This document shows positions 21,097 through 26,442 of a stretch of DNA of 64,000 nt, piece by piece. Origin of the DNA: Acidobacteriaceae bacterium (GTDB lineage: Bacteria; Acidobacteriota; Terriglobia; Terriglobales; Acidobacteriaceae); the NCBI GenBank assembly GCA_003152695.1, contig PMAT01000090.1, positions 55,048 to 119,047 of the forward strand, given 5' to 3'. A model generated the notes under the pieces. The model worked only from the letters and a program-made list of their open reading frames with translations. It searched no databases and was not told where the DNA came from. How positions within the stretch are numbered: position 1 is the first letter of the stretch; every line of letters starts with the position of its first letter. A program made the position numbers and the translations under genes.

Positions 21097-22854
21097 CTAG
21101 CGAACGGCCGCAAGGGTGTCGAGTTCTTGCTGCAACTTGCGTAAGCGCTCAAACTCGTTTTGCACGGCATTGGTACCGGCGGCCACAAGCTCTCTGGCCT
21201 TGGAAAGCGCTTGTTCGGCTGATGCGCCCACCTCGCGCAGCAGCCTGCGAACGTCGGATTCAAGCCGCAGACGGCTCTCCACCACTCGCTGTTCGACATC
21301 CCCCTGAACGCGTGAGGCGTTAGTGTCCAGAAGCTGCTCCAAAAAGTTCGCCGCGTCCTTTTGTACCCAGCGACGAATGTGAAGCGCTCCCATCACGGCA
21401 TCGAACGAGTACAACAGGGGCGACGCCGGGTGCGCGATGGTGACCATGTCGTGAAAGAAAAACCGCGAGCGGGTTCGGAAGCCATGCTCGGCATCCAACG
21501 ATTTTGGCAAGTGCGAGAAGTCAGCCGCCTGCTCCTCGGAAATTCGCAGCAGCAGCCCGTTTACCAGGTCCACGAAGCGCTGCGTGACCGCGCCATAGAG
21601 TTCCTCCGCCTGCGTCTCCTCAGTGTCCAGCCACGGCATGACATGCCGCCGAGCGACCGTCTGGGCAATCGTCATGAACTCCCTCCGCCTGCGCGGACCA
21701 AACGTGGTCGCTACAGCGCTGGTCTCGCGCTTAAACTCTTCCCGGGCGATTGGCAATACCTGCTTCAGGAATTCCTTGCGACGACCAAGCAGCGTCATCG
21801 CCAGTCTCATCTGCCCGGCCGAAAACAGGGCCCCGAGGTCCCGCAGCGATTGCTCGGCCTGGCTTACGGTCTGCCGGAGATGCGCAATCCTTTGTTCCGA
21901 GTTGGCAATCGGTTCTCTTAGCGCCCTGACGCGTTCCTCGAGCGAGCGTTGCAGCGAAGCCGAGAATCGGCGCATCCCCCGCTCCGCCGCCGCACGAGTC
22001 ATGGCCTGCCCTGATTTGCTGGCCAGGAGTTTGAGATTTTCCATCAGGTTGTTCCAGTCATCGGCATCGGTGGAGTTGTTAAGCCGATTTAGCGCGCTGA
22101 CTTCATAGATCTGGCCAACCGGCCTCTTCAGACGGTCCTCAAGAACTTTGGTTGCGAACTCCGACGCTTGCTGCCGTTCCGTAGCCGAGACGCGGTCAAT
22201 TTTGTTCAGCACGATCAGAATCTCGTCAACATTAGCGGCGACCGCCTCGATCAGCGCCACTTCCTCCCCGGAAATCGGCGGGTCGGCGCCCACGACCAGA
22301 ATGGCGGCATCGATTTGCGGTATGAAATCCCTGGTGGTTTCCGTGTTCCCGGAGAAGACAGAGCCAATTCCCGGGGTATCGACCAGGCACATTCCACTGG
22401 CCAGCAGCGGCGAAGGCAGGAAGACCTCAACTCCAGCCACTTGCTTGGAGTTTTCCGGGTTCAATTCTTCGGAAACATACTGCGGCAGCTCCTCCGGCCG
22501 AATCGTCCGCCAGCGAGTGTCGATCAGAACGCGCGCCGTTAGCCTATCTCCGTAACGTAGCACCGTGGGCACGGTGGTCACGGGCACAACCCCGGTCGGA
22601 AGTATCGGTTCTCCTACGAAGGCGTCGAGCAGGGTGGATTTGCCGCGTTTGAACTGGCCGACGCAAGCGACGAAGAAGCGCCCTTCATTGATTCGTGCGA
22701 CCAACTGCCGCACGTCGGCGCTGACCGAACCTTCGCCCAACTGCTCGGCCATTGCCGCCAGTCGATCCAGTGCTTGCGCGTGGGGAGTCCGGGCAACGGC
22801 AGCTTGGTTGGGAATCGAGATGTCATCAATGTTGTGCATCGTTCGTTGGTTCAA
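21097..22854 (-). CDS. Dynamin-like large GTPase
   Basis: G1 GQFKRGKSTLLDAF, G2-region VPVTTVPTVLRYG, G3 LVDTPGIGSV, G4 LNKIDRVS; long C-terminal helical stalk. Confidence 0.9.
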   Translation of the reverse strand: MNQRTMHNIDDISIPNQAAVARTPHAQALDRLAAMAEQLGEGSVSADVRQLVARINEGRFFVACVGQFKRGKSTLLDAFVGEPILPTGVVPVTTVPTVLRYGDRLTARVLIDTRWRTIRPEELPQYVSEELNPENSKQVAGVEVFLPSPLLASGMCLVDTPGIGSVFSGNTETTRDFIPQIDAAILVVGADPPISGEEVALIEAVAANVDEILIVLNKIDRVSATERQQASEFATKVLEDRLKRPVGQIYEVSALNRLNNSTDADDWNNLMENLKLLASKSGQAMTRAAAERGMRRFSASLQRSLEERVRALREPIANSEQRIAHLRQTVSQAEQSLRDLGALFSAGQMRLAMTLLGRRKEFLKQVLPIAREEFKRETSAVATTFGPRRRREFMTIAQTVARRHVMPWLDTEETQAEELYGAVTQRFVDLVNGLLLRISEEQAADFSHLPKSLDAEHGFRTRSRFFFHDMVTIAHPASPLLYSFDAVMGALHIRRWVQKDAANFLEQLLDTNASRVQGDVEQRVVESRLRLESDVRRLLREVGASAEQALSKARELVAAGTNAVQNEFERLRKLQQELDTLAAVR

Positions 22855-22890
22855 CTAGGGTTCGCTCAACCACTTCCATCGCCGCGCGGA

Positions 22891-23634
22891 TCATTGACTC
22901 ACCATCGCGATTCTGTAATCAATGTACAGCGGCGCGATCTTGATCTGGTTCTCGTGACAGTACTTGGGGGTCTTGGCCATGCGAATCATTTGGAGCATGG
23001 CTCCGGGATTTCCCTCGCTGTACTCGACCACTTTATTCAGAAATTGCTCGACATTGTCCGCCGTTAAACCCTCTCGCTCGGCACAGCCTGCTGCAAAACG
23101 ACGTGCAACTTCCGGATCGAAATTTCGCAGCGCGAACCTCTCAGCTCGATCGGGAAATAGCGGCAGAACGAATCCCACATCCTCCATGTGGGCGGAACGC
23201 GATACCGCGATCACCGGGACCGACCAGTTCAACATGAGCTCACGAATTGAGGCTGCCAACGCCTGCGAGGGACGCACAAGATGGTCCACGATGACCAGAT
23301 ATTTGGAGTTGCGCAGTGCATCGCGGACCAGTCCTTTTACGGAGGTGGTGGTTTTCGCCTGCAGCGACTCCGTCCCGCGCCGGCACGACTTGGTGAGCAC
23401 GGGATGTTCCAGTTCCAACAGCGACTCCGCTAGATCTCGGTACAGCGCCTGCGGGGTCGGGTTCTGCGGACTGTACAGGACGTCAGCGAATTCCGGGAAC
23501 ACCCGCCGCAACAGCAAGGTCTTTCCAACGCCTGCGGGGCCGTGCAAGAGGAACGAACGTCGAGCCGCAAAGCGCGATCGCAATTGCTCGACCTCCTGTT
23601 CGCGTCCGAAAATTGTGAGACCGGCAAGCATCAT
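22891..23634 (-). CDS. AAA/STAND-type (ORC/CDC6-like) P-loop ATPase
   Basis: IFGREQEVEQLRSRFAARRSFLLHGPAGVGKTLLLRRVF Walker A; YLVIVDHL Walker-B-like. Confidence 0.8.
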   Translation of the reverse strand: MMLAGLTIFGREQEVEQLRSRFAARRSFLLHGPAGVGKTLLLRRVFPEFADVLYSPQNPTPQALYRDLAESLLELEHPVLTKSCRRGTESLQAKTTTSVKGLVRDALRNSKYLVIVDHLVRPSQALAASIRELMLNWSVPVIAVSRSAHMEDVGFVLPLFPDRAERFALRNFDPEVARRFAAGCAEREGLTADNVEQFLNKVVEYSEGNPGAMLQMIRMAKTPKYCHENQIKIAPLYIDYRIAMVSQ

Positions 23635-24146
23635 CCTCGTGACTTTTTGTTCCGAAGCCGGCGGGCGTCTTCAGCCTCGTCGTCGCTGCCGGCCTGCCCG
23701 TCGCCAGCATTCGAGTGGAGCACATACCCATGCAGCTCTTTGACCGTGGATTGTAGCTCCGCAATTACGCCATGAAGATCGGTGGCGCCCTGCTCCGATA
23801 CTGCGCCGTAACCTCGCATGTAATGGGGATCGAGTTCCGCGATGGCAATCTCGATGAAAGTGAGATCGACGTGAATGGCATGGGCCGCCGAGATCCGCGG
23901 CTCTTCCGGCCCGAGCGACTGCCTGGCTAAGACTTGCAGAAGTTGTACCCGAAGCCGGGCGATGTAGTCCTCGATGGTCTTCCTTTGCTGGGGAATAATG
24001 TCGCCAATATAGCCGGGAAAGACACTCTTGGAGGCCGCAGCATTCAGGGTGTCTTCGACATTCCCCAGCAACTTGTCGATGTGCTTACACGTGACCAGTA
24101 AGCGCTGGCGCTGGCTCGGATTCAACGTGATGTGGTGTTCGTGCAA
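23631..24146 (-). CDS. Helical hypothetical protein, overlapping the ATPase gene
   Basis: Intact 171-aa ORF, stop overlaps ATPase start by 4 bp; no family recognised. Confidence 0.7.
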   Translation of the reverse strand: MHEHHITLNPSQRQRLLVTCKHIDKLLGNVEDTLNAAASKSVFPGYIGDIIPQQRKTIEDYIARLRVQLLQVLARQSLGPEEPRISAAHAIHVDLTFIEIAIAELDPHYMRGYGAVSEQGATDLHGVIAELQSTVKELHGYVLHSNAGDGQAGSDDEAEDARRLRNKKSRG

Positions 24147-24219: not shown

Positions 24220-24660
24220 CTACTTCACCAACAAAACCGGACAATGCGCATAGCGCAGCACCCTTTCGGACACCGATCCAAGCATCATCTTCTGAAACAG
24301 CGACGTGCCCCTTCGTCCGACGATGATCAGGTCCACTTGCTCGGTCTCGGCGCGATGGATGATCTGCTCCCCAGGATGGCCGACGACGATATCCGTCGCG
24401 ATCTCAACCCCATGCGCCTGCCCCCGTTCCACCACGCGCTTCAATCCGATTTCAAAATGCTCGCGGGCGTCATCCAGGACTGCCTCCAGTTCGACTGAGG
24501 TGGCCGGTTCGGGAAGTCTGGCTACGGCGAGGACAGAGACGGCCGACTTCTGGCAAATGCCGAACCTGATAGCCAGATCGACGGCCTTCTCCGCCAGCGG
24601 CGATCCGTCATAGCCGACCAGAATCTTCCGAAAATACGGGGTCTCGATGTTCAAGGGCAT
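24220..24660 (-). CDS. Universal stress protein UspA family
   Basis: KILVGYDGSPLAEKAVDLAIRFG...VDLIIVGRRGTSLFQKMMLGSVSERVLRYAHCPVLLVK. Confidence 0.93.
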   Translation of the reverse strand: MPLNIETPYFRKILVGYDGSPLAEKAVDLAIRFGICQKSAVSVLAVARLPEPATSVELEAVLDDAREHFEIGLKRVVERGQAHGVEIATDIVVGHPGEQIIHRAETEQVDLIIVGRRGTSLFQKMMLGSVSERVLRYAHCPVLLVK

Positions 24661-24668
24661 ATGTCCTC

Positions 24669-25886
24669 CTACTCAGCCTCAGCCGACACTTCAGAGACCG
24701 GGGATGCGCCGATTTCTCGATGAGGTTTATGCTCCGGCTTGGGCAACAGGTGCCGAGGCAAGAAAAACGCATTCGCAATTACGGTCGGAATCACAGCGGA
24801 GCCAATCACGGTCGCTACCAGATGAGAGTATTGGGCTTGAGTAATGACGTTGTGATTCAGTCCAAACAGCGCAGAGATCGTGCCGAAAGTCAGTCCCGTG
24901 GACATCATCAGCGTGTAATACAGGCCCTCTTCGTGCTGATAGCGGAAGGCCCTGACCGTCGGGAACAGGCCTACCATCTTGGAAAACATCTTGGCAAAAA
25001 AGAGGACCACGAACACCAGAGGAGCCCCCGCCAGGGTCGGAACAGAGACGAAGGACCCGGCACGAATGAAGTAGAACGGGGTGAGAAGTCCGAATGTCAA
25101 GGTTCTTAGCCTCCGCACCAGGGAGTGGTCCTTGCCAACCGTGCCGGCCAGCACGATTCCAATCATATAAGCAGGAAGGACAGGTTCACTTCCCGCCCAC
25201 GCTGCCAAGCCGCCCATGGCAAACAGAAAGAACAGCAGGAACTTGGCTTCCAGCTCGGAGACTCTACCTCCATACTTCGCAAAGAACCGGGGCGTCAGGA
25301 ATGGAAGCAGAGTGAATGCACCCGCACAAACGAGCACGAAAACCAGCGTTTTGTAGGTGAACGGTGAAAAGATCAGGCCGAGTGCAATCACGGTCCCGAG
25401 GTCGTTGACGAAGCAAGAGGCCAGAATTGCCTTGCCGAAGTCGGTTTTGTTGAAGCCGAGTTCGAGCATCACGGCATAGACCACCGCGACGGATGTGGTG
25501 CTGAGGGCCACCCCAGCCAACTCGCTGGCCCGCCAATTCCAGTGCAAAACGTAGTACGCGATGAGTGTGCAGCCGATGAACGGCCCGAAAAATCCGACTA
25601 GGCCCACCCCCACCGCCTCTTTCCACTTGGTCCGAAAGATAACAGGGTCGAGTTCTGCTCCTGCGAGAAAGGTCAGAACGATTGCTCCGGTCCCGGCGAG
25701 GAACGCGATCCAACCCGTTTTGGCACCGAGCCCACCCTGTATAAGGAATGCTCCGATGATGAGCTGGGCGACGGTGCCAACGACGATCTCGGTTAGTGCG
25801 GTCGAGATCTTGAACCAGATCGCAAGCAGAGTTGCGAGCAGGGCGAGCCCAACCCAAAGCGCTGCGAGAACCCACACGTTCTCCAT
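24669..25886 (-). CDS. Cation/proton antiporter (CPA2/KefB-NhaS type)
   Basis: Multi-TM; GLGAKTGWIAFLAGTGAIVLTFLAGAELDPVIF, LSTTSVAVVYAVMLELGFNKTDFGKAILASCFVNDLGTVIALG. Confidence 0.9.
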   Translation of the reverse strand: MENVWVLAALWVGLALLATLLAIWFKISTALTEIVVGTVAQLIIGAFLIQGGLGAKTGWIAFLAGTGAIVLTFLAGAELDPVIFRTKWKEAVGVGLVGFFGPFIGCTLIAYYVLHWNWRASELAGVALSTTSVAVVYAVMLELGFNKTDFGKAILASCFVNDLGTVIALGLIFSPFTYKTLVFVLVCAGAFTLLPFLTPRFFAKYGGRVSELEAKFLLFFLFAMGGLAAWAGSEPVLPAYMIGIVLAGTVGKDHSLVRRLRTLTFGLLTPFYFIRAGSFVSVPTLAGAPLVFVVLFFAKMFSKMVGLFPTVRAFRYQHEEGLYYTLMMSTGLTFGTISALFGLNHNVITQAQYSHLVATVIGSAVIPTVIANAFFLPRHLLPKPEHKPHREIGASPVSEVSAEAE

Positions 25887-25955
25887 CGAACTTTTGCTCC
25901 TAAATTATTTCTGGAAACTCGCCGGAGAGACATGACTCCGCGACAAGTCTTCCTC

Positions 25956-26082
25956 GTCAGGAGTCATCATCTGTCCCGGTAAGAGCAGGAGAGGACAGCG
26001 GTTCGGGGTGAACTCCTTCACCCTTGGCTAAGAGTTTATTGATAACCCCCAAGAATGGCGAAGTCAAGCTGGTTCGGTCACT
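25956..26082 (-). promoter_or_regulatory. Candidate structured leader RNA (riboswitch-like) copy 1, upstream of the antiporter
   Basis: 127 bp, about 92% identical by eye to 26316-26442. Minus-strand RNA: P1 GGGGUUAUCA/UGAUGACUCC, hairpin GGGUGAA-GGAG-UUCACCC, stem CUGUCC...GGACAG. Confidence 0.7.
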
Positions 26083-26311
26083 TCTCCGGAGTTCTGTTTT
26101 TCTTCATAAACTTCTGGTACAAACCCGCGGCGAAGAAGTACAAACATGCTCCCAAGACAATCTTCCAAACAATCCCCCCACCGCCATGCCATCGGAGCGC
26201 GCAGTAAACCCCGATCACCAGACTGATTACGATTAGAAAGTCATTGAGATCATCTGGTATTTGGTTCATAGGCATCAGATGCCATCGTGACAGAAAGAGA
26301 AAAACTCCCAA
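26078..26311 (-). CDS. Small membrane protein
   Basis: Internal ATG MPMNQIPDDLNDFLIVISLVIGVYCALRWHGGGGIVWKIVLGACLYFFAAGLYQKFMKK, two TM helices; lies between the two leader copies. Confidence 0.6.
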   Translation of the reverse strand: MGVFLFLSRWHLMPMNQIPDDLNDFLIVISLVIGVYCALRWHGGGGIVWKIVLGACLYFFAAGLYQKFMKKNRTPEK

Positions 26312-26315
26312 CCAT

Positions 26316-26442
26316 GTCAGGAGTCATCATCTGTCCCGGCAAAAAGCAGGAGAGGACAGCGGTTTGGGGTGAACTCCTTCACCCTTGGCTAAGAATTCAT
26401 TGATAACTCCCAGGGATGGCGAAGTCAAGCTGGTTCGTCACT
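26316..26442 (-). promoter_or_regulatory. Candidate structured leader RNA (riboswitch-like) copy 2, upstream of the small membrane protein
   Basis: Paralogue of 25956-26082; P1 GGAGUUAUCA/UGAUGACUCC, same internal hairpins; ends about 5 nt before the downstream ORF. Confidence 0.7.

Follow-up and report, generated by a model that had tools for sequence, protein, structure and literature searches.

Serial fluoride riboswitches upstream of a putative fluoride-stress operon with antiporter and dynamin-like genes in an Acidobacteriaceae bacterium

Fluoride riboswitches (crcB motif, RF01734) precede genes for antiporters, universal stress protein (Usp), CrcB, enolase and pyrophosphatase (PMC11139923, PMC5533749, PMC2864571). 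Na+/H+ antiporters are the second commonest genes behind them, after exporters (PMC11139923), and uspA, eno and the pyrophosphatase gene are fluoride-induced within one operon (PMC5533749). According to a 2022 review, fluoride is one of the riboswitch classes for which no tandem arrangement has been found (PMC9481103). Tandem pseudo-cooperative riboswitches, e.g. tandem TPP, place two aptamers for the same ligand upstream of one operon, and the nhaA-I, nhaA-II and DUF1646 motifs are cis-acting RNAs before antiporter genes. Described bacterial dynamin-like proteins include BDLP (2j69), the Campylobacter jejuni pair (5owv/5oxf) and IniA (6j73).

We analysed a window of 64,000 nucleotides from an Acidobacteriaceae bacterium (contig PMAT01000090.1), in which two similar leaders lie upstream of an antiporter gene. 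The leaders share aptamer sequence, hairpin, variable stem and pseudoknot with RF01734, and the antiporter and Usp genes behind them are of the kinds reported for that family. The window differs from it in having two cassettes in series, a long variable stem, and a dynamin-like GTPase, the helical protein h171 and an AAA ATPase in the putative regulon, for which no earlier report turned up in the literature searched. Unlike the tandem TPP type, each copy has its own putative promoter, and the two expression platforms differ. The GTPase domain is shared with BDLP, the C. jejuni pair and IniA (by Pfam, PDB sequence and fold search), whereas the N-terminal h171 domain of the relatives' proteins and the linkage to fluoride riboswitches are not. 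The features are as follows (positions in the window, all on the minus strand).

26400–26428, minus: putative promoter of cassette 1 (TTGACT 26428–26423, 17-nt spacer, TATCAA 26405–26400)
26384–26367, minus: aptamer hairpin, copy 1
26359–26354/26336–26331, minus: CUGUCC/GGACAG stem, copy 1
26293–26325, minus: platform of copy 1, predicted intrinsic terminator, GACTCCTGACATGGTTGGGAGTT + TTTCTCTTTC (terminator scan; fold z −2.98)
26078–26311, minus: supposed two-TM open frame, 77 codons, TTG start inside the terminator; probably not a gene
26039–26067, minus: putative promoter of cassette 2 (TTGACT 26067–26062, 17-nt spacer, TATCAA 26044–26039)
26023–26006, minus: aptamer hairpin, copy 2
25998–25993/25976–25971, minus: CUGUCC/GGACAG stem, copy 2
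25918–25980, minus: platform of copy 2, predicted anti-aptamer hairpin without a U-run (fold z −4.07)
25897–25903, minus: Shine-Dalgarno-like TTAGGAG of the antiporter gene (from sequence; recurs in several antiporter leaders)
24669–25886, minus: CPA2-type cation/proton antiporter, 405 aa (PF00999, E 1.9e-30)
24220–24660, minus: Usp (PF00582, E 5.5e-29)
23631–24146, minus: h171, helical protein of no known family
22891–23634, minus: AAA/STAND-like ATPase, 247 aa (PF13191, E 2.5e-10, over cut-off)
21097–22854, minus: dynamin-like GTPase, 585 aa (PF00350, E 4e-25), last gene of the presumed operon

The direct repeats noticed in the first-pass annotation (25956–26082 and 26316–26442) are real. 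They were identical at 118 of 128 aligned positions (92%), with gapless blocks of 96 nt at 93% and 27 nt at 96% and a longest common exact word of 29 nt, far above chance. A cmscan of the whole window against Rfam at gathering thresholds, the check that the annotation had proposed, gave three matches: one tRNA and two RF01734 aptamers. Copy 1 (26311–26392, minus) scored 37.2 bits and copy 2 (25951–26031, minus) 36.5 bits, each only 2–3 bits above the RF01734 gathering score of 34 bits (E about 1e-8). A covariance model (R1) built from 31 aptamers recognised by Rfam gave 69.2 bits for copy 1 and 67.7 bits for copy 2, both copies being among the sequences from which it was built. The annotation's idea of a riboswitch controlling the antiporter operon is supported; its choice of ligand is not. 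It had suggested Li+, Na+ or c-di-AMP (nhaA-I, nhaA-II, DUF1646, ydaO), and an antiporter gene does lie downstream of the leaders. A permissive cmscan of 701 bases (E≤1, all 4227 Rfam families), however, found the fluoride family and no match to any of those four classes, and nhaA-I and nhaA-II RNAs were reported from Proteobacteria (PMC9646797). We therefore give these ligands practically no chance. The same scan returned Hrs13 and sR23, which were dismissed as chance-level matches. Judged by sequence, the leaders are fluoride riboswitches, a known class, and presumably bind fluoride. Three fluoride aptamers scored over cut-off genome-wide, two at this locus and a third immediately before the sole crcB gene, so that the sequence is not a dispersed repeat, the alternative that the annotation had raised.

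The hairpin, the stem and the loop-to-3′ pseudoknot helices were found in both copies. The 7-bp hairpin and the CUGUCC/GGACAG pairing described in the annotation are therefore present, as parts of the aptamer. Covariation across homologues was also found: in 75 aptamers from related genomes, aligned to a model that holds 7 of the 12 pairs and not the pseudoknot, 97.4% of cells were paired with 94 two-sided changes, pseudoknot included. This value was reached by 0 of 500 shuffles, and slid controls were far lower. The pseudoknot itself contributed to this evidence one cell changed on both sides and seven A-U pairs turned into G-U. The closing stem P1 that had been proposed for both leaders was rejected, because its 5′ arm overlaps the −10 box and it shows no covariation. 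Its 5′ strands, GGAGUUAUCA (26410–26401) and GGGGUUAUCA (26049–26040), overlap the −10 hexamers TATCAA and should therefore not be transcribed, and the Rfam matches begin just past these hexamers, at 26392 and 26031. In ten leaders P1 was paired in 75% of cells with zero two-sided changes, as against 98.8% of cells for the aptamer helices and pseudoknot of the same leaders. UGAUGACUCC, taken for the 3′ arm of P1, turns out to include the 3′ strand with which the aptamer forms its pseudoknot. These results settle the ligand class of the leader and correct its structure.

Each repeat appears to comprise its own promoter and a fluoride riboswitch cassette. Because a strict sigma-70 consensus scan did not call the promoters, their assignment rests on conservation and position: TTG was conserved in all of ten leaders (set A4) and TTGACT in nine. 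The RNAs are expected to start near 26393 (cassette 1) and 26032 (cassette 2).

Both platforms compete with the pseudoknot for the strand GACTCC. In copy 1 its partner is GGGAGTT, behind which a T-run completes the predicted terminator. In copy 2 the strand pairs within a hairpin (GACTCC...GGAGTC, 25965–25934) whose outward extension also takes in the 3′ side of the aptamer stem; TTAGGAG follows about 30 nt after its end. Among 31 leaders with this type of hairpin, the inner helices were paired in 94 and 99% of cells, and its 13 two-sided changes were reached by 1 of 500 shuffles. A third platform occurs in relatives before h171, where the pseudoknot strand pairs with GGAGGAGTCATG and masks the Shine-Dalgarno sequence and start codon. 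All three kinds of platform predict fluoride to be an ON signal. An additional loop-to-linker pseudoknot before the copy 2 Shine-Dalgarno sequence was dropped, since 200 of 500 shuffles matched its covariation.

The annotation had placed a gene behind each leader. The antiporter, with its ATG at 25886, stood; the small two-TM protein between the copies did not. If the latter were real and controlled by copy 1, the switches would serve two genes and would not be in tandem. There is indeed an open frame at 26078–26311, and it encodes two hydrophobic stretches; a partly similar frame occurs in L042/L085 (46.9% over 64 aa), and two same-strand aptamers flank a gene elsewhere, namely Usp in L103 and a conserved Cys-rich frame in L093 (5092–5742), L102 (5118–5715) and L104 (2721–3372), all three on the minus strand. 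Yet substitutions by codon position in the comparisons with L085 and L084 (25/18/23 and 11/8/8) showed no bias, and the frame is broken by a frameshift in L085 and lacks its 5′ half in L084. It starts with TTG inside the terminator, with no clear Shine-Dalgarno sequence, and was found in only two of 60 related genomes, apart from one weak match inside a much longer frame. No Pfam family scored over cut-off for it, and similar DNA sits upstream of a single aptamer in two relatives. We consider a two-gene arrangement improbable, and the frame is probably non-coding or decayed. As the intervening frame shows no coding constraint, the cassettes would in effect be in tandem, and because copy 2 has its own putative promoter the tandem would be one of cassettes. 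A different reading, somewhat less improbable and in our view still unlikely, is that copy 1 arose by recent local duplication and does not regulate anything by itself. The 92% identity of promoter and aptamer fits this, as do the single copies in the relatives G003 and G008 and the rarity of close same-strand pairs, which occurred within 400 nt (E≤1e-6) in only two of 396 genomes of the phylum (this one and G300). Against it, copy 1 matches RF01734 as strongly as copy 2, its promoter and every aptamer pair are intact, and its pseudoknot strand is part of a terminator, which copy 2 lacks.

Two complete promoter–fluoride riboswitch cassettes in series thus very probably gate a fluoride-stress operon, and the pair adds two new members to an established riboswitch class, arranged in a series that is rarely seen. 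We envisage that the RNA of each cassette begins just upstream of the aptamer and that Mg-bound fluoride would stabilize the pseudoknot (GGAGU with ACUCC), and so withhold ACUCC from the hairpin that competes for it downstream. For copy 1 this hairpin would be the terminator, so that with fluoride the polymerase would continue into cassette 2, crossing a short stretch apparently devoid of a conserved gene. The hairpin that competes in copy 2 extends back into the aptamer stem, and its dissolution by fluoride would raise expression. Since copy 2 lacks a U-run, control of the antiporter could be translational or could act through a mode of termination independent of a U-run. The antiporter would export protons brought in by HF, and the operon would be backed by the genome's third fluoride riboswitch, the one that precedes crcB at another site.

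The aptamers of the second pair, in G300 (C6 244799–244872 and 245024–245097; L154 3300–3598, minus), are separated by 152 nt that contain no obvious gene, and the frame downstream encodes a short membrane-like protein. Downstream of the flanking pairs of L093, L102 and L104 lies a gene encoding a DnaB-like protein. Divergent aptamer pairs, each within one intergenic region, were seen in L052 (2251–2478), L138 (1147–1354), L139 (4923–5228) and L045 (2561–2868).

The genes for antiporter, Usp, h171, ATPase and dynamin-like GTPase would form a fluoride-stress operon, presumably transcribed as a unit. The antiporter scored 106.5 bits with PF00999 (curated cut-off 26.2) and 98.7 bits with NCBIfam TIGR00932, below the cut-off of 238.3; we therefore call it CPA2-type and not a certified member of that model. 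Its nearest solved relative was KefC (8bxg, E 6e-9). Antiporter genes also lie directly behind fluoride aptamers in L085, L092, L103, L110–L112, L114, L119, L124 and L145, and aptamers of relatives precede other known fluoride-regulon genes (crcB, enolase, pyrophosphatase, NADHdh-type subunit). That fluoride riboswitches can precede Na+/H+ antiporter genes has been reported before (PMC11139923); the continuation of the presumed operon through Usp, h171, an AAA ATPase and a dynamin-like GTPase appears to be new. In L088 (4204–5868), L091, L108, L115, L118, L120 and L129, an antiporter-type leader is followed by an apparent decayed antiporter start and then enolase; a deletion seems to have transferred the switch from the antiporter gene to that for enolase. 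Downstream of crcB, one or two genes of the DUF190 (PII-like) family are regularly present (L044 307–1382, L085 9064–10109 and others).

The genes for h171, the ATPase and the dynamin-like GTPase (window 21097–24146, minus) recur in Acidobacteriota fluoride-riboswitch loci (L084–L153). For window h171, no Pfam or NCBIfam family scored over cut-off. Its model (pLDDT 87.5) has six helices, and a fold search gave no convincing PDB match (best E 1.2). A protein sequence search found homologues at 50 genome loci, all Acidobacteriota by title (closer alignment set A2), and homologues were present in 22 of 396 genomes; none was found on plasmids. When these loci were scanned with R1, 37 of the 50 carried a fluoride aptamer on the same strand within 400 nt upstream of h171; a few of the 50 had supplied the search seeds and are not independent. 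Eight more had an aptamer within 3 kb in operon-like order, three had none and two offered too little sequence. The main-group aptamers nearest h171 are divergent, with 23–29 bits in Rfam or no match at E≤1, and were found by R1 at E about 1e-9 to 4e-4. In their favour, they lie at a constant distance, about 67 nt upstream of the h171 match, and have kept the GGAGU/ACUCC strands intact.

In 37 of 60 loci h171 forms the N-terminal part of a dynamin-like GTPase protein of ~700 aa, and 19 loci have it as a separate protein. Sequence and fold searches both match the fusion to BDLP, IniA and the C. jejuni dynamin pair (model pLDDT 75.7, pTM 0.58). The genes for crcB, two DUF190 proteins and a second dynamin often follow in h171 loci. 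A role of h171 as a defence gene was discarded, as PADLOC gave no match; the dynamin-like protein matches LeoA distantly.

By genome context, the dynamin module is a candidate part of the fluoride regulon. Our literature search, with Baker 2012 outside its scope, found no paper connecting bacterial dynamins with crcB or the fluoride riboswitch. Baker 2012 is reportedly the main source on fluoride-regulon genes. For fluoride specialists there are two surprises, the serial switches and a dynamin with a new N-terminal domain behind Acidobacteriota fluoride aptamers. We tentatively propose, as quite possible and somewhat short of probable, an undescribed fluoride regulon of the Acidobacteriota. 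In it, a riboswitch-induced membrane-remodelling module of h171, dynamin and AAA ATPase would act beside the antiporter and the Fluc channel, the cell would meet fluoride stress by repairing or shielding its membrane with the help of dynamin, and the first tandem fluoride riboswitch would gate the antiporter branch. The recurrent linkage makes a role of dynamins in ion toxicity directly testable.

Sub-cut-off aptamers before h171 were seen in L088, L091, L097, L100, L110–L118, L120 and L126–L130. In these, the 3′ strand is predicted to hide the Shine-Dalgarno sequence and AUG (GGAGGAGUCAUG), which corresponds to a translational form.
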